Source of the DNA: Campylobacterales bacterium
GTDB taxonomy: Bacteria > Campylobacterota > Campylobacteria > Campylobacterales > QNZT01
Assembly (NCBI GenBank): GCA_027023405.1
Contig: JALVVN010000018.1
Location: 1-44,259, forward strand
Direction of reading: 5' to 3'
DNA length: 44,259 nt
Shown piece by piece: positions 11,906 through 37,271 of this stretch; the stretch's first letter is position 1, and every line of letters starts with the position of its first letter. The notes beneath the pieces are model-generated. The model ran no database searches and was not told where the DNA came from. It was given only the letters and a program-made list of their open reading frames with translations. The translations under genes and the position numbers were made by a program.

Positions 11906-11907
11906 TT

Positions 11908-13505: not shown

Positions 13506-13519
13506 GCAAATGACCGGAC

Positions 13520-14293: not shown

Positions 14294-14295
14294 TT

Positions 14296-15183
14296 TCATC
14301 CTTTTATGGCGTACTCTTTGAGTACGGTTTCAATCTTTTTCATATTCTTTTTACTCGGTGCAACCAACGGCAGTCGATACTCCAATGTGGGTATCAAACC
14401 TGCGATATGCATAGCTGCTTTGATAGGTATCGGGTTGCTCTCGCAAAAGAGTGTCGTGTTTATAGCATAGAGTTTATCATTTATTGCTTTGGCTTTTGTA
14501 AATTCTCCCTTAAGCGCAAGGTGAACCAGTTCACTCTTGAGATCAGGTAGGAGATTTGCCGTGACCGAAGTAATACCCGCTCCTCCGTTTGCGAGGATCG
14601 GGTAGTCGATGGCATCATCTCCACTGAGAAGTACAAGATCTGGTGCTTGAGAGAGGAGGGCGACACAGCGCTCCAGCGATCCGGTCGCCTCCTTGATACC
14701 GTAAATATTTTTGACATCTTTGAAGAGTCTCAAAACAGTTTCGGTACTGATATCGACCCCAGTTCTACCGGGTACATTGTAGAGCATTACCGGGATATCA
14801 ACTGCCTCTGCGATCGCTTTGTAGTGTTGATAGAGACCTTCCTGAGAGGGTTTATTGTAATAGGGAGAGACGGAGAAGATGGCATCCACACCGCTTTTTT
14901 GTGCATGTTGAGCGATATCGATCGCTTCATGTGTAGCGTTGCTTCCTGCTCCTGCGAGCACTTTTGTTTGGGTTCCCTTGCATACCTCCACAGCAATCTC
15001 GATACACTGTTTGTGCTCATTGTGGCTGAGTGTCGCACTCTCTCCCGTCGTACCGACCGGGCAGATGGCATCGATGCCGTTATCGATCTGTCGTTGTATC
15101 AGTTTAGCATAAGTCTCTTCATCAATTTTTTGATTTTTGAAGGGGGTGATGAGAGCAGTAGTAGCTCCTTGTGGATGACTCAT
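14296..15183 (-). CDS. dapA: 4-hydroxy-tetrahydrodipicolinate synthase
   Basis: DapA condenses pyruvate with aspartate semialdehyde on the way to diaminopimelate and lysine. The 295-residue TIM barrel shows VGTTGE (T45 and T46), the catalytic tyrosine Y135 in LYNVPGRTG with R140, and the Schiff-base lysine K164 in GIKEATG. The late GGAGITSV segment is also conserved. Its ATG overlaps the stop of the M16 protease gene (ATGA), and it is followed at once by the enoyl reductase gene. Confidence 0.97.
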
Positions 15184-20774: not shown

Positions 20775-22167
20775 CTCGCTCCCATTGTGTACCTTGGGGG
20801 GTATCCATGAGTTTGATTCCTTGTTTAAGGAGATCGTCGCGAATGCGATCCGCCTCTTGATAATCTTTGGCTTTTTTGGCTTCATCTCGTTTGGCAATCT
20901 GTGCTTGGATCTGTGCGATCTGTTCATTTGAAACACCGAGTTGAAAATAGGCGACGGGATCCATTCCTCCGATTCCAAGCAGTTGATTGATGAGTGCAAT
21001 ATTGCTATTGATACTATATTTAAAGGCTTTATCTTTAGGGTTTTGATCGAGCGCTTCGTTGGCGTCTTGGATCATTTTGTCGATGAGGCTCAGGGCTTTG
21101 GAGATGTTGAGATCGTCGCGCATCGCTTCCAGGAGATCTTCTTTGAATGCCTTTTGGGGTGCGCTGGTTTTGAGAGTCGCAAGGCGCTTTTTGAGACGGT
21201 AGAGTTTGTCGAGACGCTTTTTACTCATCTGCAGATCGACTTCGTTAAAGTTGAAGTTGGCACGGTAGTGAGTGGAGAGGAGGTAGAAGCGAAGAATCTC
21301 TCCATCATAGACCTTGAGGGCATCTTTGAGAAAGAAGGAGTTGCCCAGTGATTTGCTCATCTTTTCCCCGTCGATCTGCACAAAGCCGTTGTGCATCCAA
21401 TATTTGGCGAGATTGATACCGCTGTGGCAACGAGACTGCGCGGCTTCATTTTCGTGATGTGGAAAGAGCAGATCGGCGCCCCCGCCGTGGATATCGATCT
21501 GATAGGGGTGATCGGAAAGGGCGAGATGTTTGTCGATCATTGCGGAGCACTCGATATGCCATCCCGGTCTTCCTCTCCCCCACGGAGAATCAAAGGCTAC
21601 CTCCGCATCCTCATCCAATTTCCACAGGGCAAAATCTCGTGGATCTCTCTTTTCTGAGCTCCCCTCTACCCGTGCCTGCTGACTCTCAAGATCGACGGCA
21701 CGATGCGAGAGTGAAAAGTAGTCGGGATCTTTGGAGACATCAAAATAGATCCCTTCTGAAATGGTGTAGGCATACCCCTTTTTGATCAGTTGATCGATAA
21801 AAGTGATGATGCTTTCCATATCTTCACTCACTTTAGGTTCGATATCGGCATCGGCGATCCCCAAAGCGTGCATGTCTTCTTTGTAGCGATCGATATAGTG
21901 TGTGGTGAGTTCAGAGAGTGTTTGGGAACTGTTTTGGAGTTTTTGCAAAATCTTATCATCAATATCGGTGAAGTTTTTCACAAAGATGACGCGATAGCCC
22001 AGCATCGTGAGAGTACGCCGTAGAAGATCAAACGCCAACGCACTTCTTGCGTGCCCCAAATGTGCCTCATCATAGACGGTCGGTCCGCAGACATAGATGC
22101 GCACGACTCCCTCTTGAAGCGGTATAAATTGCGCTTTGGAGCGCGATTGGGTATTATAGATATGCAT
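20758..22167 (-). CDS. cysS: Cysteinyl-tRNA synthetase
   Basis: CysS charges tRNA-Cys. The 469-residue class I synthetase has the zinc- and substrate-binding start VYVCGPTVYDEAHLGHARS-type motif with the HIGH variant HLGH, the zinc-ligand region WHIECSAM and GGGADLLFPHHENE, and the KMSKS loop (GEKMSKSLGN). The C-terminal anticodon-binding helices end near MDTPQGTQWERDE. Its start overlaps the murJ stop by 14 bases, so murJ, cysS and msbA form a tight operon. Confidence 0.97.
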   Translation of the reverse strand: MHIYNTQSRSKAQFIPLQEGVVRIYVCGPTVYDEAHLGHARSALAFDLLRRTLTMLGYRVIFVKNFTDIDDKILQKLQNSSQTLSELTTHYIDRYKEDMHALGIADADIEPKVSEDMESIITFIDQLIKKGYAYTISEGIYFDVSKDPDYFSLSHRAVDLESQQARVEGSSEKRDPRDFALWKLDEDAEVAFDSPWGRGRPGWHIECSAMIDKHLALSDHPYQIDIHGGGADLLFPHHENEAAQSRCHSGINLAKYWMHNGFVQIDGEKMSKSLGNSFFLKDALKVYDGEILRFYLLSTHYRANFNFNEVDLQMSKKRLDKLYRLKKRLATLKTSAPQKAFKEDLLEAMRDDLNISKALSLIDKMIQDANEALDQNPKDKAFKYSINSNIALINQLLGIGGMDPVAYFQLGVSNEQIAQIQAQIAKRDEAKKAKDYQEADRIRDDLLKQGIKLMDTPQGTQWERDETLL

Positions 22168-23560
22168 GCAAGAACTCCTTTAGATAGATGAGTGCGACAC
22201 TCAGTAGCGCCGTAAAAATGAGTAGCGCTACAAGATATTTTACGCGGATTATATCGAAAAAGGCTTTGGTGCCAAAAGCTCTCACGGTGAGTCCAAAGAG
22301 TAAAAATCCGCTCAGACTCGACGCTAGTGCCAAGCCGGCTGCTTTGAATGGGTAGATGAGTAGGAGTGAGAGGGCGATATTGAGTCCGAGTGCGTAGGCG
22401 GAGATCTTTGCCGCCTCCTCTTGGCGTTTGGTGGCATAGAGCCAAAGGGAGAAGATACGACTCAGACCAAAGGGTAAGAGTCCGATGAGATACATCGTCA
22501 GGATACGGGCAGTTTGGGTGCTGTCTTGGGTGCTAAAACTGCCTCTTTGGTAGAGAAGCCAGACAATCTCATCACTCAAAATCGACCCTACGAGTGTTGC
22601 CACAAGCAGGATACTCAAGAGAAACCAAAAGCTCTTTTGCAGTATCTCTTGGGCTTTTTGGGTATTGTTTTGGTGGAGATAGCGGGAGACTTTGGGAAAG
22701 ATAGCGACGGAGGTGGCGATGGAGAAGAGGGCGAGGGGAAATTGGAAGATGCGATTGGCATAGTAGAGATAGGAGATGGAGCCGGCAAAGAGAAAGGAGG
22801 CGAGCCAACCATCTAAAAAGGCGGAGATTTGCGCCGTGGAGCTTCCGAGTGTGGAGGCGAAAAATTTGGTTTTGAAACTCTTGATATCCTCTGTGAGATC
22901 GGCAGGGTGACGATCTTTGCGTTTGAAGCTTGCGAGTAGGAGGCGGTGCAGACCATACTTTTTAATCGCGATTAGGTGGACGAGTACCTGTAAGATTCCC
23001 CCAATCACCACGGCAATACTGAGATTATAAATCATACTATATTTGTCGAGATCTTTGGAGTAGAGGAGCGCCGAGATGAGAGCGATATTGAGCAGTGCCG
23101 TGGCAAAAGCGGTGGTGGCAAAGTGGTTTTTGTACTGAAGCAGAGAGGCGAAAAAGGTGACGATAAAGATCAGCAAGAGATAGTAGAAGTTGATAGCTAC
23201 CAAAGGTGCGGCAAGTTCGATACTTTTAGGGCTAAATCCCGTAGCAATGAGCTTTGTGAGGAGCGTGGGGAAAAGTGTCACAAAAATCGAAAGGATCAGT
23301 AAAAAGAGGGTAAAGCGCTTGAAAATTGCAACACTAAAGAGCCCTTTTCGCCGTGTCTGAGTAAAGGCGGGAAGAAAACTCTGCACAAACGCACCCTCGG
23401 CAAAGATACGACGAAAGAGATTAGGGAGTTTGAAGGCGACGATGAAGATATCGGTATAGATATTGGCACCCAAAATCGAGGCTTGGAGCATATCGCGAAT
23501 AAATCCTAAAATACGAGAGAAGAGAATGCCGAAACTGTTGGTGAAGATTGCCTTGAACAT
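22154..23560 (-). CDS. murJ: Lipid II flippase MurJ
   Basis: MurJ moves lipid II to the periplasmic face for peptidoglycan synthesis. The 468-residue polytopic MOP-family protein has the MviN signatures near its start (GFIRDMLQASILGANIYTDIFIVAFKLPNLFRRIFAEGAF and QSFLPAF) and about 14 hydrophobic segments. The ATG at 23560 is not preceded by a Shine-Dalgarno sequence; a TATACA-like box lies nine bases upstream, so its leader could be very short. It is divergent from pelD and is the first gene of the long minus-strand run. Confidence 0.93.
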   Translation of the reverse strand: MFKAIFTNSFGILFSRILGFIRDMLQASILGANIYTDIFIVAFKLPNLFRRIFAEGAFVQSFLPAFTQTRRKGLFSVAIFKRFTLFLLILSIFVTLFPTLLTKLIATGFSPKSIELAAPLVAINFYYLLLIFIVTFFASLLQYKNHFATTAFATALLNIALISALLYSKDLDKYSMIYNLSIAVVIGGILQVLVHLIAIKKYGLHRLLLASFKRKDRHPADLTEDIKSFKTKFFASTLGSSTAQISAFLDGWLASFLFAGSISYLYYANRIFQFPLALFSIATSVAIFPKVSRYLHQNNTQKAQEILQKSFWFLLSILLVATLVGSILSDEIVWLLYQRGSFSTQDSTQTARILTMYLIGLLPFGLSRIFSLWLYATKRQEEAAKISAYALGLNIALSLLLIYPFKAAGLALASSLSGFLLFGLTVRAFGTKAFFDIIRVKYLVALLIFTALLSVALIYLKEFLHAYL

Positions 23561-23587
23561 AGGGGAAGTGTATAGAAAATGTGGTTA

Positions 23588-23596
23588 AGGACACCT
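23588..23596. repeat. First copy of the AGGACACCT element
   Basis: AGGACACCT here lies within a short dyad (AAGG-ACA-CCTT) 28 bases upstream of the murJ start. The same nine bases recur at 23795-23803, at the predicted pelD transcription start, making a possible paired operator. Confidence 0.35.
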
Positions 23597-23779
23597 TTTC
23601 TTCAATGTGCCCATATGTAACAAGAAGTAACCAGCATCTTATATCATTCAAAATAGTTGGTTGGTGATAATTCTTAAGGTTATTGTATCAAATTTTATTA
23701 AGATGGAATATATAACACATATTACATAAATTCATACTCTCTAGCTTACATGGTGTGACTTCCTTTCTCCTCTCTGTTT

Positions 23780-23788
23780 TGTTATGAT
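23780..23788 (+). promoter_or_regulatory. Extended -10 promoter of the pel operon
   Basis: TGTTATGAT matches the extended -10 element seen elsewhere in the window. The expected start point is near 23795, leaving a leader of about 33 bases with GAGGAG at 23817-23822 before the GTG start of pelD. The 267-base gap between murJ and pelD is AT-rich; apart from this box and the AGGACACCT repeats I see no gene in it. Confidence 0.5.
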
Positions 23789-23794
23789 GAATAT

Positions 23795-23803
23795 AGGACA
23801 CCT
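23795..23803. repeat. Second copy of AGGACACCT at the pel start point
   Basis: This copy overlaps the predicted transcription start of pelD and lies in an imperfect dyad (TATAGG-ACA-CCTGTA, five of six arm positions paired). A protein bound here would be placed to block initiation. Confidence 0.35.
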
Positions 23804-23827
23804 GTAAATATAAGATGAGGAGTATGC

Positions 23828-25045
23828 GTGAAAAATGTTGCGCAAAGGCTATTGGAAAGTATCACGATTACGCTTTTATATATTCTTATAGGATTTTATT
23901 TTTTTCCTTCTGATCCATTACTCATAGATAGCAAAATCCCATTAATAGTCATTTTACTTACGATTATCACACTCTTTCACGGTACAAAGTATGGGTTAGT
24001 TGCACTTTCTTTATTGGGGAGCGTATCCTATTTTTTGTACCATCCTTACCCCATCGTTCAACTCCTTTCCTACCTTATTTTGGTACTTATTTTAGGTCAG
24101 TTTTATCACTATTGGTTTAAAACGAGAGAGAGTATGCAGGCAGTTGCCACCTATACGCAAAGACGACTCAATGAACTCAATCACGCGTTTTATACGCTAA
24201 AGCTTTCGCATGACACCATGAAAAATAGTTATGTACTTAAATCGATGAGTATGAGGAGTGCTTTTGAGGAGATTCAAAATTTTTATGCCAAAGATGGTTC
24301 TCACTATCAAAGGTTTCTACATTTATTGACACATGCCTATCGCGTAGAGGATGGAACGATTGCTCTCTTAAAAGATGATGATTATTATATAGTCGCCTCT
24401 ATAAAAAAAGAATCAACGCTTGATTCGATAAAGCAGCAAACTTTGGATTTAGATGATCCGTTGATCCAACATACATTGGAGTCAGGAGAAACATCATATG
24501 TCAGTCAATTAGATGATAAAAAAACACCTTATCTTGCTGTAATACCGATGACAAATCAAAATCGTACAGTAACGGCACTACTTACGATTGAAAAGATGCC
24601 TTTTTTGGAATTTAATGATGATAATATGATTGCAATATCTATACTCTTTTCCTACTTTATCGATCAAGTGACACTACATACTCGAATGAGTCAACATAAT
24701 ATGCGTAGAGAGCAACTGTTCGCCTATCGTTTTAATGAATTATATTCTCTGAAAAAGCGTTACAACATTGACTCTACTATGATAATTTTAAAAATAGATG
24801 ATGAACTGATTTTAAAGAGAGTAAAAGAGGTATTGGAGGGATCTCTTAGGGCATTAGATGAGTATCAAGTTTCAAAAGAGCCGAATCAATTTATCGTATT
24901 CATCCTTTTACCTCTTACGCCTATTGACTCTTCAATAGTGATTGTAGATAAATTGAAACAAGCGTTAATGCATAAAAAATTTGAATACATGGGCTTTGAG
25001 ATTCAACAAAAACCACTCATGCTACGATATATTGAGGAGTCTTAA
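23828..25045 (+). CDS. pelD: Pel regulatory subunit PelD, c-di-GMP receptor
   Basis: PelD is the inner-membrane protein that senses c-di-GMP and switches on Pel polymerisation. The 405-residue protein has four hydrophobic segments (about 11-27, 37-51, 55-70, 76-95), a helical stalk, a GAF domain (about 150-285), and a degenerate C-terminal GGDEF domain. The position equivalent to the GGDEF active site reads KEPNQF, so it cannot be a normal cyclase, but the inhibitory-site motif RxxD is intact as R341-A-L-D344 at the expected spacing, matching the c-di-GMP-binding site known from Pseudomonas PelD. Start GTG 23828 with GAGGAG five bases away. It is the first gene of the pel operon. Confidence 0.9.
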   Translation: MKNVAQRLLESITITLLYILIGFYFFPSDPLLIDSKIPLIVILLTIITLFHGTKYGLVALSLLGSVSYFLYHPYPIVQLLSYLILVLILGQFYHYWFKTRESMQAVATYTQRRLNELNHAFYTLKLSHDTMKNSYVLKSMSMRSAFEEIQNFYAKDGSHYQRFLHLLTHAYRVEDGTIALLKDDDYYIVASIKKESTLDSIKQQTLDLDDPLIQHTLESGETSYVSQLDDKKTPYLAVIPMTNQNRTVTALLTIEKMPFLEFNDDNMIAISILFSYFIDQVTLHTRMSQHNMRREQLFAYRFNELYSLKKRYNIDSTMIILKIDDELILKRVKEVLEGSLRALDEYQVSKEPNQFIVFILLPLTPIDSSIVIVDKLKQALMHKKFEYMGFEIQQKPLMLRYIEES

Positions 25046-25960
25046 ATGTCAAAATACATCATGATACATGTTTTACTCTCATTTGTTATCGCTTTCATAG
25101 CGACTTTACTACTGATAAAAGATGAAAGAAAATCATACAAACGAATGTTTCTATTTTTATTACTCTTTAATCTATCTTTACCGTTTCTAGCTTATGTTGT
25201 AACTCTACTATTTGCTCCAATCATTGCATTTGCAAACAAAAAGAGTTATATTCACGGGATCAAAACTTTTAATAAAGAGGAGTTTTTAAAAAGCCCTTAT
25301 CCAAAAGTGCGTAGATTTTTTGGTGAGGGAGGAGTGACCTTTTTGGTAAAAGATAAAAGTCACAACTCACCACATAAGATGAAGAGTCTCGTATTTATGA
25401 CGAAAAATCCCAATAAAGAGAGTAATGCACTCATTAGAGGACTTTTATCGGATCATGATTATGAAGTGAGACTCTATAGCTTCTCTTTTTTAAATGGACA
25501 AGAGGAAGCGTTAAACAAAAAGATTTCTCATCTATTACAAGAGCTCGACAAAACGCATTCAGATACACACAGAGCTACCGTACATCGTGAGATAGCACTT
25601 TTATATTGGCAATTTATTGAGTCCGGTCTTATTGAAGTCAAAAATGCAAACATGATGTTAGACAAAGCTACTTTTCATGCAAATCAGTCACTTGGATTGA
25701 GTCTAGATCGACCATCTCCAGAACTTTTGTACTTGCTTGCAAAAATCTATTTTAAGAAGAGTGAGTATCGGAAAGCGACGACTTATTTTGCTGAAGCAGT
25801 CAAAAAAGGGTTATCAAAGGATGTTGTGATGCCCTATTTAGCCGAAATTGCCTATGAAGAGAGAGATTTTGAAACCGTTCAACATCTGATACAAGCGTAT
25901 CGTCCCAAAGATATCTCATATCCTTTAGAGGCAGTCTATTTGCAATGGAGAAAGTCATGA
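25046..25960 (+). CDS. pelE: Pel inner-membrane TPR protein PelE
   Basis: PelE is a small inner-membrane component with a TPR-like cytoplasmic domain, thought to help assemble PelD, PelF and PelG. The 304-residue product has two membrane helices at about residues 7-24 and 34-60, a loop, and C-terminal helical repeats (PELLYLLAKIYFKKSEYRKATTYFAEAVKKG; VMPYLAEIAYEERDFETVQHLI). The ATG immediately follows the pelD stop with GAGGAG six bases upstream. Identity rests on position and architecture, because PelE is poorly conserved in sequence. Confidence 0.82.
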   Translation: MSKYIMIHVLLSFVIAFIATLLLIKDERKSYKRMFLFLLLFNLSLPFLAYVVTLLFAPIIAFANKKSYIHGIKTFNKEEFLKSPYPKVRRFFGEGGVTFLVKDKSHNSPHKMKSLVFMTKNPNKESNALIRGLLSDHDYEVRLYSFSFLNGQEEALNKKISHLLQELDKTHSDTHRATVHREIALLYWQFIESGLIEVKNANMMLDKATFHANQSLGLSLDRPSPELLYLLAKIYFKKSEYRKATTYFAEAVKKGLSKDVVMPYLAEIAYEERDFETVQHLIQAYRPKDISYPLEAVYLQWRKS

Positions 25961-27453
25961 GATTGCCTCAAAGTGATCATGTAGATATTATGCTAGTTGC
26001 GGAAGGAACTTATCCTTTTATTCGAGGTGGGGTATCTTCTTGGATTGATCAGCTGATTGCAGGATTACCGATGTATACCTTTGGCATTATCTTTATCGGC
26101 TCATCCAAAGATGACTATGGTGAACCACTCTATACTTTCCCACCAAACTTGAAACATATTGAGGTGCATTATCTGTTTGAAGAGAAGAGCTATCTTCCTA
26201 AAAAGCGTAAAGGTAATAAGAGAGCATTTACTGTTTTGAGGCACTTTTATCAAGAGATGAGAAAAGAGAATCCTGAGATTCCTGAAGCTATGAAAAAAAT
26301 CTCCTTTTTTACGAAAGAGATGACCATGGAAGATTTTTTATACTCGAAAGAGTCATGGCTTTTTATGAAAGAGGTGTATGAGAAAAATTGTCCTGATGTT
26401 CCTTTTATTGATTATTTTTGGACACTCAGAAATATGCATGCACCTATTTGGAAAATCGCTTCGATTGTCGAGAATATGCCAACCTGCAAACTGCTTCATT
26501 CACCTTCGACCGGTTATGCCGGTTTTTTATCATTTTTGGGGTCGCAAGTCAGAGATATTCCTTTTTTATTAACGGAACACGGTATCTATACGAGAGAGCG
26601 AAAGATCGATATGATGTCAGCGAAATGGATAAGCTTTCATGTTCCGACATTGTTAGAAGATTCTCCTAAAGAGATGAATTATGTCAAAGAGATGTGGGTT
26701 CAATTTTTTGAAAAAGTTGGATTATTGAGTTATCGTTCAGCGAAACAGATTATCTCCTTGTATCCAGGTGCTAGAGAGATACAGATTCAACATGGTGCTC
26801 AAAAGCACAAAACAGAAGTGATACCCAATGGTGTCGATATGAAAAGATTGAATCGGCTTGTAGAGAAACGATCTGATCCGATTCCTAAAGTTGTTACCTT
26901 AATTGGTCGTGTTGTCTCTATTAAAGATATCAAAACATTTATTCGTGCAATAGCCTTCGCAAAAGAGAAAATTCCTGAAATCCAAGGATGGATTGTTGGT
27001 GACATGGATGAGGAACGCACTTATGCAGATGAGTGTGTCGCAATGGTCGAAGCTTTTTCATTACAAAAAAATGTCCTATTTTTAGGTTTTCAAAAAATCG
27101 ATGACATTCTTCCCAAAAGTGGTCTCTTGACATTGACATCTATCAGTGAGGGGATGCCGTTAGTTATTTTAGAGGGGTTTGCCGCAGGGCTTCCTTGTGT
27201 AAGTACAGATGTGGGTAGTTGTAGAGATTTGATTAATGGGGCATTGGATGATGACGATATTGCAATAGGTTCTGCCGGTGCAGTGACCGATATTGCAAAT
27301 GCCAAAGATCTTGCGAAACACTATATTCACTATTTGACAGATGCACAATTATGGAAAAAGGCGCAAGAGAGTGCACTCAAACGAGTTACAAAATATTATA
27401 GGCAAGAGCAGTTTTTAGAGCGTTATCAAGCACTCTATGAGAGGATGATGTAA
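25957..27453 (+). CDS. pelF: Pel glycosyltransferase PelF
   Basis: PelF is the cytoplasmic GT4 glycosyltransferase that polymerises the Pel sugar chain from UDP-linked precursors. The 498-residue protein begins with ADIMLVAEGTYPF-like sequence and the diagnostic RGGVSSWIDQLI, contains TEHGIYTRERKI, the donor-domain start EVIPNGVDM, TLIGRVVSIKDIKTFIRA, and the GT4 EX7E motif E398-GMPLVIL-E406. The ATG at 25957 overlaps the pelE stop (ATGA) and has GGAG six bases upstream; an in-frame ATG at 25945 is the alternative. The stop overlaps the pelG ATG. Confidence 0.95.
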   Translation: MRLPQSDHVDIMLVAEGTYPFIRGGVSSWIDQLIAGLPMYTFGIIFIGSSKDDYGEPLYTFPPNLKHIEVHYLFEEKSYLPKKRKGNKRAFTVLRHFYQEMRKENPEIPEAMKKISFFTKEMTMEDFLYSKESWLFMKEVYEKNCPDVPFIDYFWTLRNMHAPIWKIASIVENMPTCKLLHSPSTGYAGFLSFLGSQVRDIPFLLTEHGIYTRERKIDMMSAKWISFHVPTLLEDSPKEMNYVKEMWVQFFEKVGLLSYRSAKQIISLYPGAREIQIQHGAQKHKTEVIPNGVDMKRLNRLVEKRSDPIPKVVTLIGRVVSIKDIKTFIRAIAFAKEKIPEIQGWIVGDMDEERTYADECVAMVEAFSLQKNVLFLGFQKIDDILPKSGLLTLTSISEGMPLVILEGFAAGLPCVSTDVGSCRDLINGALDDDDIAIGSAGAVTDIANAKDLAKHYIHYLTDAQLWKKAQESALKRVTKYYRQEQFLERYQALYERMM

Positions 27454-28826
27454 TGGCGGGAATTAGTTTTGAATTACGAAAGATGTTAAAAGAGGATTCC
27501 ATCACTTCCCTGGGAAAAACATATGGGTACTCCGCACTCTTAAGTTCCGGACCTTGGGTAAGCTCGATTATTGCGATACTTATTATCGGTTTTTTCTCTT
27601 TAAATCTTCATAGGAACCACAATGAGCATAGAGCATATGAACTCGTTATTACCTATGCATTTGCATTTGCTTCAAGTATTATGTTGACAGGTTTGATTCA
27701 ATTACCGTTTACGCGCTATGTTGCAGATAAGATTTATGAAAAGAGAGAAGATCTCATCTTGCCTTCATATATCGGTGCACTCTTAGTGAGTACCATTTTG
27801 GGAACGATTTTGATTTTACCTCTCTCCTTTTATGTATTTCATGGTGTTTCGACACACTATATTATTATTGTATTTTATATTTTTATTACGATGACATGGA
27901 TCTGGCTTGCAAATATTATCGCTTCTAGTCTAAAATTTTATAAAGAAATATTTTATGCATATTTTATTATCTATGCGTTCATGGTGATCTTTTCTTATCT
28001 GTATGGTCACAATAGTGAGACACTCTTACTTATATTTTTAATTGGAAATCTTTTACTTTTTGCCATATTGAGTAGTTTTATTGTTTTGAGCTACCCCTCG
28101 GATAAATTGATATCATTTGATTTTTTTAAAATGAAAAATTTCTATTGGTTTTTAGCTTTATCAGGCTTGTTTTACTCGTTAGCGATTTGGATCGATAAAT
28201 TTATATTTTGGTATCACCCTCTTACCGGTAGTGTAGTTTTGGGAAAGCTTCATAGTTCTGTTGTCTATGATATCCCGATCTTTTTGGCATATTTGACCAT
28301 TATTCCGGGTATTGCTATCTTCTTCTTTCGATTAGAGGCACATTTTGCCCCAAAATATGATCTCTTTTTTGATGCTGTTAAAAACGGCGGTACTTTAAAG
28401 ATACTAGATGATTACAAAAATGATATGATTAGAGTTGTGCGTCAGGCAATGAGAGAGACGCTTTATGTTCAAACGATTATCACGATTATCCTCTATATAT
28501 ATACCAAAGAGATATTTTCATTTTTATACATACCGCAACTCTATGCAGAACTTTTTCATATAGATATGGTCGGTGCGCAATTACAACTGGGTTTTATGTC
28601 TGCGCTTGCACTATTATACTATTTAGATAGAAGACGAGCAACAATGTGGCTATCTCTACTCTTTCTTCTACTTAATGGGAGTTTATCTCTCCTCACTATC
28701 TACTTGGGACCTAGCTTTTTTGGATACGGTTATACATTTTCACTCTTAATCGTTTTTATTATCAGTTTATGGGTGATTAACAAAACATTGGAGGATATAG
28801 AGTATGAAACTTTTTTACTTCGTTAG
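27453..28826 (+). CDS. pelG: Pel MOP-type transporter PelG
   Basis: PelG is the polytopic inner-membrane protein of the MOP superfamily that, with PelD, PelE and PelF, makes up the Pel synthase/translocation complex. The 457-residue protein starts with the typical PelG N-terminus MAGISFELRKMLKED and YSALLSSGPWV, and shows about 12 hydrophobic segments. The short LFYSLAIWIDKFIFWYHP and the FRLEAHFAPKYDLFF segment are characteristic. The ATG shares a base with the pelF stop (TAATG). One line counted by hand was 25% GC, the lowest sampled in the window. Confidence 0.94.
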   Translation: MAGISFELRKMLKEDSITSLGKTYGYSALLSSGPWVSSIIAILIIGFFSLNLHRNHNEHRAYELVITYAFAFASSIMLTGLIQLPFTRYVADKIYEKREDLILPSYIGALLVSTILGTILILPLSFYVFHGVSTHYIIIVFYIFITMTWIWLANIIASSLKFYKEIFYAYFIIYAFMVIFSYLYGHNSETLLLIFLIGNLLLFAILSSFIVLSYPSDKLISFDFFKMKNFYWFLALSGLFYSLAIWIDKFIFWYHPLTGSVVLGKLHSSVVYDIPIFLAYLTIIPGIAIFFFRLEAHFAPKYDLFFDAVKNGGTLKILDDYKNDMIRVVRQAMRETLYVQTIITIILYIYTKEIFSFLYIPQLYAELFHIDMVGAQLQLGFMSALALLYYLDRRRATMWLSLLFLLLNGSLSLLTIYLGPSFFGYGYTFSLLIVFIISLWVINKTLEDIEYETFLLR

Positions 28827-31551
28827 GGTGCTGATAACCATCTTTTTGATGAAGAGTACTCTTGTTGCGGGATTAAATGATAAATCCGCTTTTGTCTATT
28901 ATGGAAATGATATCTCTTATCCTATGGCAGGTATTCATGATTACATTATCGTCGAGCCGAATAATATAGAGGTCTCTGCACCGGGGTTTAAAAAGTATAG
29001 AAACAATATATATGCATATATGAGTGTGAATGAGATATCCAAAAATGGTGCCCACGCCAAAGAGATAAAACGAGATTGGATTATAGGCGATAATCCTAAT
29101 TGGGGTAGTTATGTCATGAATATTACAAATAGAAATTATCAAAACTACTTACTAAAGCGCTTACAAAAACTTCAAAGCAGAGGGTTCAAGAATTTCTTTT
29201 TTGATACACTAGATTCCTATCAACTTGCTCCTGTTTCAAAAGAGGAGAAAGAGCAACTACGACAAGGACTGATTCAGTTTATTCATCGCTTTTCACAACA
29301 ATTTCCCAAGGCTAAGCTGATTATCAATCGCGGTTTCGATATTATCGATGCGGTGCATAGCAATATTGAAGCAGTGCTTTTTGAGTCTTACTATAACGGC
29401 CTAGATAGTAGCACAATGCGTTATAAAAAAATGAGTCAAGAAGATCGTGCATGGCTCGATACACAACTCAAGAAAGTAAAAGCATATCATATTCCTATTA
29501 TCGCGGTTGATTATCAGGATTTAAATGACAAAAAAGCGATTAAGCAAAATATTCTCAAGCTCCAGAAAAAAGGTTTTATCCCTTATATCGCTGAAAAAAC
29601 ATTGACTTATACGGGCTACAGTTCCAAAAATGCGTTTAAGCGGGAAGTGCTTATCATCTACAACGGGCGTCATCTTGAAAAAAATTTAGTAGCCTCTACT
29701 TATGCCCATCTGTTTGCTTCAATGCCTTTGGAACATATGGGTTATATTCCAGTTTTAAAAGATGCCAATCAAGCTCTGCCTGCAATAGAATCGAGTCGCT
29801 ATGCGGGAATTATTATATGGCTTGAAAATGCAGACTTGAATATGAATCATCTTATGAGATGGGTCAAAGGGGCTATAAAGAGTGGTGTAAAAGTGCTTTT
29901 TTTAGGAGATAATTCGCTCAACCTCAAGCACCCTTTGGCAAAAGAGCTTGGGCTATTTGCTGTGAAAAATCGTGCTACAAAAGGTTCAAAAAACCACATT
30001 GTACACGCATCAAACATCATGAATTATGAGATCAAACCCTCCATAAAATATCATAAATTATTTATTGATTTACATCAAAAGAGTACCCCCTATTTAGTGT
30101 ATAAAAATAGTCAAAATCAAACCTCTACGATTGCCGCTAAAACAGCTTGGGGTGGATATGTGAGAAGTGATGCGTTAATCAGTGATTTTTTTGGTGACGA
30201 TGCGATGTGGGTCATTAATCCATTTCAACTTTTTCGAGAGACGCTACGATTAGCCTATTTCCCCGCTCCCGATCCGACCACAGAGAATGGAAAGCGCTTA
30301 GCTTTTATACATATTGACGGCGATGGGAGTATGAATAAAGTAGAGAACAACACACAACTCATGTCCATGGAACTCATTGAAAGAGATTTCATAAGAAAAT
30401 ATAAATTTCCACAATCGGTTTCTGTCGTTGAGTCTGAAACTGCACCCTATGGTAAATATCCGCAATATTCAAAAAGATTAGAAGCCGCAGCAAGAAAAAT
30501 GTATGCGCAACCTTATGTCGAGGGCGCAACACATACATTTACACACCCCTATCAATGGCGCGCATTGGAAAAAGATCCCGGCAATCCAAAGTATAGGACA
30601 AATTTGAAAAGGCACTATACTTATACGACAAAAAGAGAGATAAGTGATTCGCTTGACTATATTAACCGTAGGCTTATGCCAAAAGGTAAAAAGGCGCGTA
30701 CCATATTTTGGTCAGGAGACTGTTCTCCTAGCCAAAAGGTGATTAAATATACTTATGCGCATCATATTCTGAATATCAATAGGGGAGATACGACGATTAC
30801 CAATGATCAACCATGGTTATTGCATATTCAACCTTTTGGTATTAAGTATGGAAACTTTTATCAAATCTATGCAGGCGCAGAGAATGAAAATGTTTATACC
30901 AATGATTGGCATGGTCCATTTTGGGGATTTAAAAAAGTGATACAAACATTCAAGTTGACAGAAAATCCGAGAAGAATCAAACCTATCGACATCTACTACC
31001 ATTTTTACGCCGCATCCAAGAAGGCATCTTATACGGCTCTCAAGGAGGTTTATGATTGGGTTGCAAAACAGGATGTGATGCATATTTTCACCTCTGATTA
31101 TATTAAAAAGGTCATAGATTTTTACAATGTATCTATTGCACAAGAGGGGAACCGCTGGTTATTGAAAGGTTTTTCAAATTTAAGAACAGTGCGTATTCAC
31201 AAAAGTTTAGGATTACCGGATATAGAAAAGAGTATCGGTGTTGTCGGATATAAGAGAAAAGGGGATGAGCTCTATGTACATTTAGATGAGAAAAAAAGAA
31301 AGGTGCTGACACTCACATATCAACATTTTGCGCAAAACTATTTAATCTCTTCCAATGCGAGATTGGTTTCAAAGAGGAAAAATCACTACCATTTTATAGG
31401 AGAAATGCCAGTTACTTTAGATTTTCATCTCAAAAAAGGTTGTGTTATCAAGACACAGCCTAAAGTAGATCGCATCCACCATAAAGCCGATAGGGTCTCT
31501 TTACAATTTACGCATGCAAAGGATGTCTATGTTACGACGATATGTAAATAA
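28804..31551 (+). CDS. pelA: Pel bifunctional hydrolase/deacetylase PelA
   Basis: PelA is the periplasmic enzyme that deacetylates Pel, making it cationic, and also cleaves it. The 915-residue protein has a signal peptide (about 1-22), an N-terminal GH114/GH166-like barrel with the catalytic glutamate position E194 in VLFESYYNGL, a middle reductase-like Rossmann region (about 280-400), and a polysaccharide deacetylase domain with the metal/catalytic set D505 and D507 in FIHIDGDG and H577/H581 in GATHTFTHPY. A beta-rich tail ends the protein. Both catalytic centres seem intact. It starts 23 bases inside pelG, with GGAGG nine bases before the ATG. In Pseudomonas pelA comes first; here it follows pelG. 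Confidence 0.93.
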   Translation: MKLFYFVRVLITIFLMKSTLVAGLNDKSAFVYYGNDISYPMAGIHDYIIVEPNNIEVSAPGFKKYRNNIYAYMSVNEISKNGAHAKEIKRDWIIGDNPNWGSYVMNITNRNYQNYLLKRLQKLQSRGFKNFFFDTLDSYQLAPVSKEEKEQLRQGLIQFIHRFSQQFPKAKLIINRGFDIIDAVHSNIEAVLFESYYNGLDSSTMRYKKMSQEDRAWLDTQLKKVKAYHIPIIAVDYQDLNDKKAIKQNILKLQKKGFIPYIAEKTLTYTGYSSKNAFKREVLIIYNGRHLEKNLVASTYAHLFASMPLEHMGYIPVLKDANQALPAIESSRYAGIIIWLENADLNMNHLMRWVKGAIKSGVKVLFLGDNSLNLKHPLAKELGLFAVKNRATKGSKNHIVHASNIMNYEIKPSIKYHKLFIDLHQKSTPYLVYKNSQNQTSTIAAKTAWGGYVRSDALISDFFGDDAMWVINPFQLFRETLRLAYFPAPDPTTENGKRLAFIHIDGDGSMNKVENNTQLMSMELIERDFIRKYKFPQSVSVVESETAPYGKYPQYSKRLEAAARKMYAQPYVEGATHTFTHPYQWRALEKDPGNPKYRTNLKRHYTYTTKREISDSLDYINRRLMPKGKKARTIFWSGDCSPSQKVIKYTYAHHILNINRGDTTITNDQPWLLHIQPFGIKYGNFYQIYAGAENENVYTNDWHGPFWGFKKVIQTFKLTENPRRIKPIDIYYHFYAASKKASYTALKEVYDWVAKQDVMHIFTSDYIKKVIDFYNVSIAQEGNRWLLKGFSNLRTVRIHKSLGLPDIEKSIGVVGYKRKGDELYVHLDEKKRKVLTLTYQHFAQNYLISSNARLVSKRKNHYHFIGEMPVTLDFHLKKGCVIKTQPKVDRIHHKADRVSLQFTHAKDVYVTTICK

Positions 31552-32584
31552 AACAGACAAGCCGTATGTCTTAACAATGTATGAGCTTCTTTTTATTTTT
31601 GTGGCGTTTTTAGGTGTTCTATATCTATTGTATCCCAATAAAAAAAGTTTAGAAAAAAAAGTCTTATCAGAAACTGCTAATTATGATTTAACAGCTATGT
31701 ATCTGAAAAACTTAATCACTGTTAATCCAAAAGATAGTGAACTGGTTTTTGCAATGGCGAAAACACTCTATCAACAAGATAAGCTTGATCTGTCTAAAAA
31801 ACTACTAAACATACTGGAGTCAAATCCCAGTGATGCCATGAAGGTCAAAGCAACACTCTTGCACTTAAATCTTAATGAACTTATATTACAAAAACCGATT
31901 TCACAGGATGAGTATAGTGCTGTGACGCAAGAGAGTAGGGAGTTGCTCTCTTCAATATCTCACATTACGAATATCGATAAGAGGAGTGAAGAAAAACTCT
32001 ATAATAAAGCGATTTCATTCGGAGAGAAAAAGGCGGCGTTGACATTTAGCCTGGATTTGGCACTCAAACATAAAAATGATAAAAAGTATCTTGTTTGGTT
32101 AAAAAATACACACTATTTAGCATCTCAGTTGGGGGAAAAAGATGTCGATATTGAAGTCTTGAAAAGGCTGATCTTGCATGATAAAAACAATGCTTATATA
32201 TGGCTCAATGCGCTTTTCCCTCAACTAGCCAAAGGGATAGATCTCAAAGCACTCGCAGTTGAGTTAAAACTTGATGATCTTACGCTTGCAAATCTTTATA
32301 TTCTTAATCATGAACCATTAAAAGCCGCAAGTGTATATATGGCACTCTTGCATCAAACAGTAGATAAAAAAGAGAAAAAAGAGCTACTGATTAAAATCTT
32401 GACAATACTCCAATCTCACAGTCGCATGGATGACATAGTCTCATTAATTCAAAAGTATGAGGATAGCTATATCCATGATCGAGAGATGAGACAAAGATTT
32501 TTACAATTGTATCTTTTAGCAAACAGGGCTGACTTGGCAAATAAATTCTCACTTAAAATTCTTCATACAAGGGGGCTAAAGTGA
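31529..32584 (+). CDS. pelB: PelB N-terminal-like protein: inner-membrane-anchored TPR scaffold
   Basis: This 351-residue protein has a short basic N-terminus, one hydrophobic helix (about residues 18-36), and then helical repeats with TPR periodicity (DSELVFAMAKTLYQQDKLDLSKKLLNILESNP; LTLANLYILNHEPLKAASVYMALLHQ). This is the layout of the N-terminal part of PelB, the periplasm-spanning export protein, which in Pseudomonas is one chain of about 1,190 residues. Here the barrel half is a separate gene downstream. The start is taken at ATG 31529 because AAAGGA lies five bases upstream; ATGs at 31514 and 31523 are in frame. It overlaps pelA by 23 bases and shares GTGA with the next gene. Confidence 0.75.
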   Translation: MLRRYVNKTDKPYVLTMYELLFIFVAFLGVLYLLYPNKKSLEKKVLSETANYDLTAMYLKNLITVNPKDSELVFAMAKTLYQQDKLDLSKKLLNILESNPSDAMKVKATLLHLNLNELILQKPISQDEYSAVTQESRELLSSISHITNIDKRSEEKLYNKAISFGEKKAALTFSLDLALKHKNDKKYLVWLKNTHYLASQLGEKDVDIEVLKRLILHDKNNAYIWLNALFPQLAKGIDLKALAVELKLDDLTLANLYILNHEPLKAASVYMALLHQTVDKKEKKELLIKILTILQSHSRMDDIVSLIQKYEDSYIHDREMRQRFLQLYLLANRADLANKFSLKILHTRGLK

Positions 32585-35343
32585 AAAAACTCCTCATTGT
32601 ATTTGTGCTCTTTCATACCATTTTATATGCAAAAAATGACCGTTTGGATGATGAAGATCTCAGACTGATGTATCAGTCATTTATCTATTCCAAAAATTTA
32701 TCGCATGCTTATGCTATCGCTAAAGATGCGCTAAAACGCTATCCTCACTCCTTATATTGGCATCAAAAACTTTCAGATGTAGCTTTGTGGAGCGGGAAAA
32801 ACAGTGTGGCAATGGATCATATGATCTATATCTATCGGCACACACATGATCCTGCAATTGTTAAAAAAATTATCAAACAAATGGTTGCTTCTTATCAGTA
32901 TGAAAAGGCACTGCCTTACATCAAGCAGGAATTTAAAAAAAGTGCTCATCATTCAGAAAATAGTATCAAAGAGATCATTACGGCATATAGTAGAACCGGC
33001 AGACCCGAAGATGCCATCAAGACTTTACAAGAGCAGTACAAAAAAGATCCATCCGCGAAATATCTCTCTGCGATATTAGCCTTGCAAATGGAGTTGGGGG
33101 ATATCAAAAATGCGCAAAAAAGTGTGGCACTTTTGAGTCACTATCAGGACAATAGCCCACAAACAGCCCTGGCGCTATCCAAATACTATTTTTTAAAGAA
33201 GGATTTACACAAAGCGTATGCTGCATTATTGAGAGCTAAGCGGACAGATGAATGGAATCATAGTGAATATTTTAAGAGACTCAGTGATCTTGCCTGGTAT
33301 TTGAATGATCAAGATACGGCACTCTATGCATCACTGGTGCTTTACAGAAATCACCATGCAAGAATGGTCGATTTGGATCGTATTAATAAAGTCTATAAAG
33401 CCACAAATGTTTCACTACTACGAGATGTCTCCCAAGTCGCTTTAAAAAAGTTCAAAAAGCCTACACTTCTTTTGGAGAATATCAATGAAAATTTAGAAAA
33501 AAAGAATTTCAAAGAACTCAAATTACTCATGCGTAGGGTTTTGGCAGATAAGGAGAGTCGAGCGTTGGTTGAAAAAAATGGGCAATTTTGGTTTGCAAAA
33601 GCGATGACGGATGACCATTTTGGTAAGAAGGCTTTAGCAAGAGAAGAGTTTCAAAAAGCAATGAAGTTAGCAACCAATTCCGGTAGAACGCAAGCTGCGA
33701 TCCTATGGTATTTAATCAATCACTATCACTATGATGCTTTAGCAAAAATGGTTCATCATATCGAACAAGAAAAAAGTGTACCTGAAGAGCTCTACTATCC
33801 GCTCTCAGCCGCATATCTTGCTCTACAAAAAAGGGATAAAGCACTTTCATATTTTCATAAAGCATTTAAGCGGGAGCCGGATAATATCTCCCTGCAATTC
33901 CTCTATACTGAAATTCTAGCGTCGTTGGGAGAAGAGCAGAAAAAGAGAAAAATCCTCAAATTGATTTTCGATAAACTGGATAAACAAAGTACACAGCACC
34001 CCGAACACTTAAAAGATAAGCAATTTATGCGAGAGTACCTGCAATCCTCTTTTGCGGTTTTCTCACCTAAAAAAGTTGATATGATGATTGAAACAGCAAA
34101 AAAAAGATTGCGTAAAAAAGATTATTTAGAGTTAAAAATGCTTGTAGCACTTAAGGAAAAAGATTATCAAAAAGCGAAAAGAATATATAGTCACTATCCC
34201 CATAAAAATCCAAATATTGAGCTTGAAATTGCTACATTAAGCCATAATACGCAAATGCAAAAAAAGTTAATGCAAAAATTATCTTTCGCTGCTCCAGATA
34301 CGCTGAAAATCAAAATATTGGAAGATGCAAATAAGATGGATCAAGCAATCAATATTGCTAAAGATTCTCTTAAAGAGAATCGTAGGGATCGAGTATTGAT
34401 AGATAAATTAGCATCACTGCAAAAAGAGTATGGCAATAAATTTGGTGCTCATATGAAGTATGAAAAACGGGGGGATATCAGTGTTTCCGCTACTGCTCTT
34501 GAAGATTTTTATTATGTTGCCAATGGCTACGGTCTGATTTCTAAGATTGAATACTACCACTATAAAAATCGTAATAAAATGCGTTTAGCTTTCAAGCACA
34601 GAGATGAAACTGTATACCATCTTGGATTAAGAAAACATATCAAAGATGGCAAAGTCGAAGCGACTCTACACTATCGAGATGCTCAAAAAAGTAGTATCGG
34701 TTTTTCTATGAAAGCAGTAAAATCATTCTCACAACGCTTCACACTCTCAACGACTGTTCAAAAAAATAGTCCGGTAAGAGATGAGAGTGACATTCTGATG
34801 ATAGGTGCAAAAAAAGATTCTATATCTATGCGTGCAAATTATAAGATTAATCAGAAGCAACAACTCTCAGTAAGAGCGGAGAGACTGAATCTGTATGCGC
34901 TTGATAATATCAAGGTTGGAAGTGGAACACGAGCTGATTTGAGTTGGGATTACGCCTTTATCAAAGAACCAAATATCGCTATGAGAGTGATGTATCGTTA
35001 CGGTAAATATCAAGTAGGAGAGAAGAGTCCTCTTCTTCGTAAGTTATTGACAAAATCATCTCAAAAAGAGAGATTGGTATCGAATGATTATAGAAGTGTA
35101 GGAGTCGGTATCTCTTATGGCGATATCTATCGAGGATATGGTAGAGGATTTTCTCCCTATTTGGATGCCTCCCTTATGTATGATCAGATCGCAAAAGGTG
35201 CATTTGGAGATCTCTCTTTAGGGGTTACGAACTCATTTGGTAAAAAGAGCTTTTATCAATTAGGTCTCAATTATCAAAACAGTATGAGTGTCCAACACTC
35301 TGAAAATTATGGGATTGATTTTCATTATAGTAAGCTCTATTAG
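32581..35343 (+). CDS. pelB: PelB C-terminal-like protein: TPR plus outer-membrane barrel
   Basis: The 920-residue protein has its own signal peptide (about 1-17, ending before KNDRL), a long run of TPR-like helical repeats (for example PEELYYPLSAAYLALQKRDKALSYFHKAFKREP), and, from about residue 640, beta strands typical of an outer-membrane barrel (KVEATLHYRDAQKSSIGFSMKAV; RADLSWDYAFI; FSPYLDASLMYDQI) ending in an aromatic C-terminus (FHYSKLY). It matches the TPR-barrel part of PelB, the export pore for Pel. The start is GTG 32581 with a G-rich ribosome site upstream; the stop of the preceding gene overlaps it. Together with the preceding product the length is close to one-chain PelB. Confidence 0.85.
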   Translation: MKKLLIVFVLFHTILYAKNDRLDDEDLRLMYQSFIYSKNLSHAYAIAKDALKRYPHSLYWHQKLSDVALWSGKNSVAMDHMIYIYRHTHDPAIVKKIIKQMVASYQYEKALPYIKQEFKKSAHHSENSIKEIITAYSRTGRPEDAIKTLQEQYKKDPSAKYLSAILALQMELGDIKNAQKSVALLSHYQDNSPQTALALSKYYFLKKDLHKAYAALLRAKRTDEWNHSEYFKRLSDLAWYLNDQDTALYASLVLYRNHHARMVDLDRINKVYKATNVSLLRDVSQVALKKFKKPTLLLENINENLEKKNFKELKLLMRRVLADKESRALVEKNGQFWFAKAMTDDHFGKKALAREEFQKAMKLATNSGRTQAAILWYLINHYHYDALAKMVHHIEQEKSVPEELYYPLSAAYLALQKRDKALSYFHKAFKREPDNISLQFLYTEILASLGEEQKKRKILKLIFDKLDKQSTQHPEHLKDKQFMREYLQSSFAVFSPKKVDMMIETAKKRLRKKDYLELKMLVALKEKDYQKAKRIYSHYPHKNPNIELEIATLSHNTQMQKKLMQKLSFAAPDTLKIKILEDANKMDQAINIAKDSLKENRRDRVLIDKLASLQKEYGNKFGAHMKYEKRGDISVSATALEDFYYVANGYGLISKIEYYHYKNRNKMRLAFKHRDETVYHLGLRKHIKDGKVEATLHYRDAQKSSIGFSMKAVKSFSQRFTLSTTVQKNSPVRDESDILMIGAKKDSISMRANYKINQKQQLSVRAERLNLYALDNIKVGSGTRADLSWDYAFIKEPNIAMRVMYRYGKYQVGEKSPLLRKLLTKSSQKERLVSNDYRSVGVGISYGDIYRGYGRGFSPYLDASLMYDQIAKGAFGDLSLGVTNSFGKKSFYQLGLNYQNSMSVQHSENYGIDFHYSKLY

Positions 35344-35414: not shown

Positions 35415-37271
35415 ATGTTAAAACTGTTTGGACAGAAGCAGAACAAGAGTGATAAGGGTGTTTTGACACCTGAAGTCAATTTTGATAAAGTCGTTGTGAC
35501 AACGACGGATCTGCTCACTACCATTCAAACGATAGCCAAAGAGCATCAAATATCACCTAAAAGGCTAGATTTTAAGATACTCTCCTATAAAACTTTTCGA
35601 AAAAAAGAGGGTAGTAGTGAGGAGATTACGACACCGGCAAAAGAGGATATGCTTGATCCCAATGTCAAATTTGAGCAAGAGTTGCGTATCGAAATCTTTC
35701 TCAAAGAGGAGAGAGCCTCTTTCCCCATACCGATTTCGTTAAGTGCCAATAGTGATTTTACAACGATTCGTGCTGTTGTCAAGCCTCAAGAGAATATATC
35801 CTATTTTGAAGGGTTAGAGGCAGAGATAATTGCTGAAATCGATCGAAGAAAAGCGAAGGCGGGGATATTGCTTGGCTTGCAAGATGAGATGATGCGAAAG
35901 AGTGTCAAAAAGTTGGTGGCAATTATTCGTGTCAATGGGGCACTTTCCAAGCAGACATCTTTTGTGGTTTGTGAAGGTATTCCCATGAAAGAAGCTGTGA
36001 CCAATCAACTCATTGAACACTATATCGACGAAGAGAATAAACAGAGTAATACGATGCATGTGGTATCTAAAGGAGAGTTGGTTCTTGAGGTAATCAAAGC
36101 TCAACCCGGAGAAAATGGTCGAAACTGTAAAGGTGAAATGTTAATCCCCAATCAAGTGGAGTTGAGCGAAAGCGGGATTGATATTAAGGTGAGTGAAGAT
36201 TTTGAAATCAAAGAGGAGGAGGATCGTATCCTCTATTATGCGAAAACGGCGGGTCACATTAGCCGTGGGGTCGATAACAGTTTTGAGATCAAAGAGGAGT
36301 TGGTAGTCGATTCGGTGAGTGTCAAGACGACCGGTGATATCAATGGAGGTGAAGAGAGTGAAGTGAGTGTGACCATCCGAGAAGATGACTCTGTTGTAGA
36401 TGCGGTTGGACCAGGGGTTGAGATCGATACTTTTGAGATTAACATTGCCGGAAGTGTGGCAAACAATGCCAAGATTAAGGCACAAAAAGCCCAAATCAAA
36501 GGGCAGACACACCAGAGTTCCTATGTGGAAGCAAACTCATTGCAGATACATTTGCATAAAGGAAAAGCTGAAGGTGATATTGTAGAGATCGATATTTTGG
36601 AGGGAGGTATTGTTTATGCTGACAGTGTGCGTGTAAAGCAGTTTAACGGGGGTGAAGTGCATGCGCAAAGAGTCTATATCGGTGAAATCACCAACAATGC
36701 AAAAGTGTATGCTTCTCACCATATTGAGATTGACAAGATTACCGGAAATGGGAATCTTTTTGTGGTAGATGCAGCGGCTCAGAGAAATTTTCAAGAAAAG
36801 TTTGAAGTATTGAGTCAAAAACTTTCTGATGTTAACTATAAATTAAAAAAATTGCCTAAATTACTTAAAAATAAAAAGCATAAGATCAAAACAGAATCAG
36901 AGAGTATCGCAGAGATACAAAAGGTGTTGGCGGAGATGAAAAAGTATGGTAAAACACCGTTGGCATCGATGACGATGAAGCTCAAAGATCATCAAAATAG
37001 AATTAAAGAGTTTAATTCATTGCTTCAAGAGCTAAAAGATGCTAAACTGCAAGCAGAAACTCTCAAAGAGGAGCTAGCAGAGCTCAATACCAGTGTACTC
37101 AAAGCCAAAGTGATTCATAAGTCACCGTGGAAAGAGTTTAACGAGGTGAAGTTTAAGCTCATTGAACCGCCGATAGAGGTCTCATTTTTACCCAAAGAAG
37201 GTGAGGTCACTAGAGAATTGGCTCTTGCAGATACAGATGAAGGAGAGTATCAAATCAAACGAGGAGCGTAG
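35415..37271 (+). CDS. fapA: FapA-family (DUF342) protein
   Basis: The 618-residue cytoplasmic protein has an N-terminal region of about 170 residues, then a central FapA/DUF342 domain predicted as a right-handed beta-helix with repeating short strands (VDSVSVKTTGDINGGEESEVSV; FEINIAGSVANNAKIKAQKA; GGIVYADSVRVKQFNGGEVHAQRVYIGEIT), and a C-terminal coiled coil (about 460-570). In Vibrio, FapA is linked to polar flagellar assembly; in other bacteria the family is uncharacterised. In Campylobacter a relative lies between ruvA and murJ, as I recall. The ATG at 35415 follows AAGGA with nine bases of spacing. Whether it acts with flagella (note fliW) or with Pel is not known. Confidence 0.85.
   Translation: MLKLFGQKQNKSDKGVLTPEVNFDKVVVTTTDLLTTIQTIAKEHQISPKRLDFKILSYKTFRKKEGSSEEITTPAKEDMLDPNVKFEQELRIEIFLKEERASFPIPISLSANSDFTTIRAVVKPQENISYFEGLEAEIIAEIDRRKAKAGILLGLQDEMMRKSVKKLVAIIRVNGALSKQTSFVVCEGIPMKEAVTNQLIEHYIDEENKQSNTMHVVSKGELVLEVIKAQPGENGRNCKGEMLIPNQVELSESGIDIKVSEDFEIKEEEDRILYYAKTAGHISRGVDNSFEIKEELVVDSVSVKTTGDINGGEESEVSVTIREDDSVVDAVGPGVEIDTFEINIAGSVANNAKIKAQKAQIKGQTHQSSYVEANSLQIHLHKGKAEGDIVEIDILEGGIVYADSVRVKQFNGGEVHAQRVYIGEITNNAKVYASHHIEIDKITGNGNLFVVDAAAQRNFQEKFEVLSQKLSDVNYKLKKLPKLLKNKKHKIKTESESIAEIQKVLAEMKKYGKTPLASMTMKLKDHQNRIKEFNSLLQELKDAKLQAETLKEELAELNTSVLKAKVIHKSPWKEFNEVKFKLIEPPIEVSFLPKEGEVTRELALADTDEGEYQIKRGA

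Follow-up and report, generated by a model that had tools for sequence, protein, structure and literature searches.

In Pseudomonas aeruginosa, the Pel exopolysaccharide is encoded by pelABCDEFG, and the lipoprotein PelC, a hallmark of Gram-negative Pel systems, is essential (PMC12141448). Here we analyse a Pel cluster found in a 44,259-nucleotide stretch of a Campylobacterales genome (contig JALVVN010000018.1; hereafter the window). It resembles the P. aeruginosa system in having PelA, PelD, PelE, PelF, PelG and both parts of PelB, and in keeping their active sites and the RxxD motif of PelD, but differs from it in that pelA and pelB follow pelG, PelB is encoded by two genes, PelD carries lysine at the R402 position and PelC is absent. 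The pelCDEFG-A-Bn-Bc clusters of Campylobacterota and Aquificota (e.g. Sulfurimonas, Sulfurovum, metagenome-assembled genomes (MAGs) of Nautiliaceae, Hydrogenothermaceae) have the identical order and usually a split PelB, but they keep pelC directly upstream of pelD, which the clade of the window does not. Both pelB fission and pelA/pelB rearrangement were published in 2020 as a class, in aquatic-thermophile pel clades (Bundalovic-Torma 2020, PMC7112194, Fig 5iii); in the accessible part of that paper there is no mention of PelC loss or of the host group of the window. Pel synthesis without PelC is known from the Gram-positive pelDEADAFG cluster of Bacillus cereus (PMC7112168), which likewise combines synthase genes with a PelA-type deacetylase, but that organism has no outer membrane and no PelB, whereas the window encodes an outer-membrane barrel. 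What is new is that PelC has been lost; the permuted order and the split PelB add little to published work.

PelC in the window and its relatives

Seven plus-strand open reading frames (ORFs; 23828-35343), which overlap or are separated by a few bases, form the cluster pelD-E-F-G-A-Bn-Bc (Table 1). The original prediction had read a Pel cluster with D-E-F-G-A followed by pelB-like genes, and had named failure of PelF and PelG in profile searches as grounds for abandoning it; these two gave the strong matches listed in Table 1, the PelA, PelD and PelB-barrel profiles matched as well, and the Pel identity is far beyond chance, with no polysaccharide system that fits better. PelA aligns to the solved PelA 9cgy over residues 43-872, nearly its whole length, and pelE was called because it lies between pelD and pelF and is homologous to pelE in 20/20 clusters of the phylum. 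What that gene inventory overlooked is the absence of pelC, which stands directly upstream of pelD in 37/41 campylobacterotal clusters with enough upstream sequence. The four clusters without it are the window and the loci L044, L075 and L076.

We searched for PelC with two profiles, one built from three annotated canonical operons and a second, stronger one built from 20 sequences; statements about whole genomes rest on six-frame searches. The first profile found PelC directly upstream of pelD in 19/21 pel-bearing campylobacterotal genomes, and found none in the genome of the window (G000) or in its family mate G248. Across 22 genomes of the family, the second profile detected PelC at E<1e-39 in seven, and no PelC in G000 (99.9% complete), G248 (carrying L044), G398 (L076) or G412 (L075). 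The best match in G000 had an E value of 0.11 and covered only the N-terminal part of the profile, which is noise level. A pelC hidden upstream of pelD was rejected, as the 267 bp gap gave no profile match, and a relocated pelC gave no match above noise anywhere in the genome. By these searches the hallmark lipoprotein of Gram-negative Pel systems is missing from the operon and from the genome, while positive controls match.

On a PelF+PelG tree (supports here are FastTree local supports), the four PelC-less clusters form one clade with support 1.0, and their sister, L081 (G397), has pelC. Because the PelC-less clusters are monophyletic with a PelC-bearing sister, pelC would most simply have been lost once in this clade, nested among PelC-bearing clusters. 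Alternatively, the periplasmic collar on PelBc may be formed by a substitute for PelC, a lipoprotein that is unrelated to PelC or highly diverged from it and whose gene lies elsewhere in the genome. Three points would suit a replacement: P. aeruginosa requires PelC, which assembles there on PelB (PMC12141448); small lipoproteins evolve quickly; and by sequence PelC is only weakly like other lipoprotein folds such as LpoB. Nevertheless, the noise-level match in G000, the lack of any added gene inside the operon in the four clusters, and the disappearance of the conserved PelC-facing motifs from the PelB rim (see below) speak against it, and we regard a replacement as rather unlikely, at about one chance in four.

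Outside the Campylobacterota, seven clusters from Nitrosospira (L153, L157, L169) and from the Thiotrichales Thiothrix and Leucothrix (L144, L147, L161, L177) resemble the window in that PelC is missing from the operon and gave no significant match in the genome, under conditions where three positive controls matched. The Nitrosospira and Thiotrichales clusters fall in separate places on the PelF+PelG tree. Unlike the window, they mostly have the Pseudomonas order and a fused or divergent PelB, and those of Thiotrichales have a short PelA (about 385 aa where complete) in place of the full-length PelA of the window. In the Nitrosospira loci the genes read pelA-B-D-E-F-G, and the C-terminal part of the PelB-like protein failed to align to the barrel motifs of the others. 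In the Thiotrichales loci PelB measures 1404 aa in L161 and L177, and PelD carries RGAN, RSAN or RGGN instead of RxxD.

The two PelB proteins and the rim of the barrel

The two genes at the end of the cluster, predicted to be two pelB-like genes, are indeed PelB-like but are the halves of one PelB: a profile of the shorter protein (PelBn) aligns to residues 1-310 of fused PelB and a profile of the longer one (PelBc) to 311-end. Paralogues born by duplication were ruled out, since the two align to opposite ends of one protein. The AlphaFold model of PelBn (predicted local distance difference test, pLDDT, 91.6) has a helix at 22-39, by sequence an inner-membrane anchor, with TPR helices after it, and the AlphaFold2 (AF2) model of PelBc (pLDDT 89.4) shows a TPR solenoid leading into a 16-strand barrel, whose Plug-I, Plug-O and Plug-S elements occupy the loops that carry them in P. 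aeruginosa. PelBc matches the PelB structure 9h80 both by sequence and by fold (Foldseek template modelling score 0.83 by target length). P. aeruginosa PelB is thought to span both membranes as one chain (PMC12141448). Here its inner-membrane anchor, TPRs and 16-strand barrel are all present and spread over two proteins, so that, on these models, the membrane-to-membrane bridge must be built from both. PelB is split in 32/36 campylobacterotal clusters vs 12/44 others, which include Geobacteraceae and Alcanivorax in Pseudomonas gene order. In two Nautiliaceae-type loci (L031, L032), the gene after pelA encodes a single protein of 700-723 aa that is recognised by the PelBn profile but not by that of PelBc, and export across the outer membrane may there depend on a different protein.

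The TPR/stalk region of P. aeruginosa PelB, together with arginines in the periplasmic loops of its barrel, holds the PelC ring in place, and the same loops hold PelC Asp119 (PMC12141448). The PelBc model places the periplasmic turns between strands 2-3, 4-5, 6-7, 8-9, 10-11, 12-13 and 14-15. PelC-bearing relatives carry GYPD in turn 10-11, YTRVWRP in turn 12-13 and QDHL in turn 14-15, motifs that are partly kept even in Aquificota and Geobacter. The corresponding turns of the window read AFIKEPNIA, GYGRGFSP and GKKSFY, and those of L044 and L076 have similarly diverged. Asp798, invariant in 24 references, has been replaced in all three PelC-less barrels of the clade, twice by Asn and once by Leu. 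Conserved positions in the periplasmic turns were kept at 0.29 in these three related, non-independent sequences, vs 0.45 for other conserved barrel residues (odds ratio (OR) 0.51, uncorrected p 0.025); the PelC-less Thiotrichales gave 0.08 vs 0.21 (OR 0.33, uncorrected p 0.016), and none of seven PelC-bearing control groups showed a turn deficit at p<0.05. Given the relatedness of the sequences and the uncorrected p values, these results are suggestive of a loss of rim motifs coupled to PelC absence in the clade of the window. As a convergent rule, rim-motif loss holds only partly, as the Thiotrichales keep the turn 14-15 Asp and the Nitrosospira barrels did not align.

On the opposite side of the barrel, the three PelC-less barrels have extracellular turns with a net charge of +5 to +9, while those of most relatives are neutral to negative. 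Such turns would repel a cationic polymer, which raises the question of whether the product of the clade is related to P. aeruginosa Pel but has another sugar, chain length or degree of deacetylation, so that PelC is not needed. PelF, PelG and PelA nevertheless closely resemble their counterparts in PelC-bearing relatives, and PelA retains both active sites (see below), which makes a different polymer improbable in our estimate, and less probable than a replaced PelC.

Gene order, conserved residues and the insertion site

PelG was found in 25/397 sampled Campylobacterota, with 21 strong, full-length matches, and all 20 campylobacterotal clusters that were fetched read D-E-F-G-A followed by PelB or a PelB-like gene. 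A wider survey of about 110 clusters, of which 80 were named loci of bacterial genomes, placed A and B after G in 43/43 assignable campylobacterotal clusters (window included), in Aquificota and in a few MAGs of other groups, whereas A-B come first in nearly all Pseudomonadota clusters surveyed. The usual campylobacterotal order, pelC-D-E-F-G-A-B, is a circular permutation of the Pseudomonas A-B-C-D-E-F-G. The original prediction, which proposed this comparison, had described the cluster as rearranged: the D-E-F-G-A-B order was correctly read, but the word misleads, since the order is the norm for the phylum and Aquificota and rearrangement of this kind is already in print. We thus rejected the order as a peculiarity of this genome; order and PelB split alike are ordinary for the host, because 43/43 clusters share the first and 32/36 the second.

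The survey also turned up further arrangements. In a Sulfurimonas-like group (L036, L039, L033, L034, L040, L108, L110, L112, L114), the cluster ends with an additional pelA, full or partial, behind pelBc, a duplication of pelA inside the operon. Within the family of the window, L077, L079 and L080 (in G402, G415 and G404) represent a second pel cluster type whose PelA is only about 295 aa long, with a GH114 match (L079) and too short for a deacetylase domain; three genomes have two PelG genes.

PelF has its EX7E motif (E402-x7-E410). By alignment, PelA retains both hydrolase residues (D134, E194) together with the deacetylase set H503, D505, D507, H577, H581 and H733, which correspond in order to P. 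aeruginosa H526, D528, D530, H600, H604 and H761, and PelD keeps the I-site RxxD as R341-A-L-D344. The roles of the PelA residues are taken from PMC12022489, where epsilonproteobacterial PelA has already been reported. All three motifs had been predicted as kept, and are. The cyclic di-GMP (c-di-GMP) site of P. aeruginosa PelD comprises R367, D370 and R402, and the window matches the RxxD pair and has Lys at the third contact. This position is Lys or Asn in the clade of the window and in its PelC-bearing sister, and Arg in 89/108 aligned PelD; in P. aeruginosa it is needed, as R402A abolishes c-di-GMP binding (PMC2170427). The further claim that the pathway looks functional thus stands as regards the key enzyme residues but needs qualification, with pelC missing and one PelD c-di-GMP contact changed. 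Given twelve GGDEF matches, c-di-GMP signalling is likely present in this genome. In another campylobacterotal subgroup (L043, L123, L124, L128, L130), PelD is without the first Arg of RxxD (e.g. LFEILD).

The cluster sits between murJ and fapA, which are directly adjacent in G398 and in G409, a 92% complete genome of the same genus as the window in which no PelG was found. By core genes, G398 is nearer to the window than G412 (ddl 78 vs 72%, fapA 48 vs 41%), while by the pel genes G412 is the nearer one (PelF 70 vs 78%, PelBn 35 vs 51%), and the tree pairs the window with G412 at support 1.0 although G412 and G248 share a genus. Because the pel gene tree disagrees with the core genes, this suggests lateral transfer of the PelC-less cluster within the family to the murJ-fapA site. 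GC content at third codon positions is 0.31-0.35 in the pel genes vs 0.40-0.58 in the flanking genes; we did not rely on the GC dip (35.9% vs 43.2%) by itself as proof of transfer, as pel clusters lie 3-7 points below their flanks elsewhere too, and no meaningful flanking repeats were found at the insertion site. Beside the other clusters of the clade lies a divergent single-domain GH114 gene (L044:14280-15952, L076:14494-15267, L075:3373-4164), as in the PelC-bearing sister (L081:8299-9045), and L044 has two such genes in a row; in the genome of the window the only other GH114 gene is on a different contig (G000 C25:32305-32958).

Could the cluster be a decaying, non-functional remnant whose remaining genes drift after pelC loss? 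The missing pelC, the R402K/N change in PelD and the eroded rim motifs would all be expected of it. However, four diverged species have all ORFs intact (in L075 the contig ends within the last gene), the PelA and PelF catalytic residues are kept, and the cluster has been retained after its move to another site. Moreover, between the window and G412 pN is well below pS, with a pairwise ratio of nonsynonymous to synonymous rates (dN/dS) of about 0.08-0.2, dS being near saturation. The low dN/dS and the uninterrupted, overlapping ORFs point to selection on function, by which the cluster is apparently maintained, and decay seems very improbable, the least probable of the alternatives that we considered.

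Table 1. The Pel cluster of the window and its flanks
Feature	Coordinates	Strand	Description	Basis
murJ	22154..23560	-	left flank of insertion site	
upstream gap, usual pelC place	23561..23827	.	267 bp, non-coding, up to divergent murJ	
pelD	23828..25045	+	GTG start; inner-membrane c-di-GMP receptor, degenerate GGDEF	PF16963 1.9e-6; PDB 4euv 8e-11; alignment
pelE	25046..25960	+	inner-membrane protein with TPR	position and homology; weak TPR matches only
pelF	25945..27453	+	GT4 glycosyltransferase	NF038011 5.7e-187 (full model); PF11997 5e-89
pelG	27453..28826	+	inner-membrane Pel transporter	PF16933 1.3e-126, 1-452 of 452
pelA	28804..31551	+	GH114 hydrolase and CE21 deacetylase	PDB 9cgy 4e-136; GH114 9e-14
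pelBn	31514..32584	+	N-terminal PelB half: inner-membrane anchor helix 22-39, TPR scaffold	fused-PelB mapping; AF2 model
pelBc	32581..35343	+	C-terminal PelB half: hydrophobic signal-like N-terminus, TPRs, 16-strand outer-membrane barrel 620-919	PF24604 1e-25; AF2; Foldseek
FapA-like gene	35415..37271	+	right flank of insertion site; then ruvA, ddl	

Elsewhere in the window, a minus-strand housekeeping run (11234-17542) encodes an alanine-racemase-like PLP protein, an M50 protease, a CDP-alcohol phosphatidyltransferase, an enoyl-ACP reductase, DapA, an M16 peptidase and a dihydroorotate dehydrogenase.

Proposed export without a PelC ring

Altogether, we consider it reasonably probable that the window carries a c-di-GMP-controlled Pel system of the campylobacterotal type that lost PelC once, exports its product without the PelC ring and was moved laterally within the family. 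The ancestral arrangement would have been pelC-D-E-F-G-A-B with a split PelB. PelF would polymerise the chain, and PelD, PelE and PelG, controlled by c-di-GMP, would carry it over the inner membrane. PelBn, with its inner-membrane anchor, and PelBc, which carries the outer-membrane barrel, would jointly form a periplasm-spanning TPR path on which PelA would trim and deacetylate the chain, and the product, presumably a partly deacetylated alpha-1,4-N-acetylgalactosamine (GalNAc) polymer, would exit through the PelBc barrel without a PelC ring, the PelC-docking rim having eroded. Lateral transfer within the family would have brought the cluster to its place between murJ and fapA.

Several points weigh against this scheme. 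PelC is essential in P. aeruginosa (PMC12141448), so its loss could mean replacement or lost function, and PelD has Lys at the R402 position, where R402A abolishes c-di-GMP binding in P. aeruginosa (PMC2170427). The genomes are drafts (44 contigs for that of the window), the near-universal turn 14-15 Asp is kept in the PelC-less Thiotrichales, and the limits of the rim test and of dS given above apply here too.

Beyond the window, it seems to us an even bet that a PelC-free Gram-negative Pel exporter with a remodelled PelB rim exists as a type, having evolved one or more times in Campylobacterota and independently in Nitrosospira and Thiotrichales. PelC-less clusters escape surveys that use PelC as query, as an earlier pel-operon survey did (according to PMC7112168). 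They are a natural experiment on the role of the twelve-subunit PelC ring, and because the PelB rim has changed along with the loss, the contact between PelB and PelC can be tested directly. If the scheme is true, PelC would be a dispensable assembly or efficiency factor of Pel export and not a required part of the channel.

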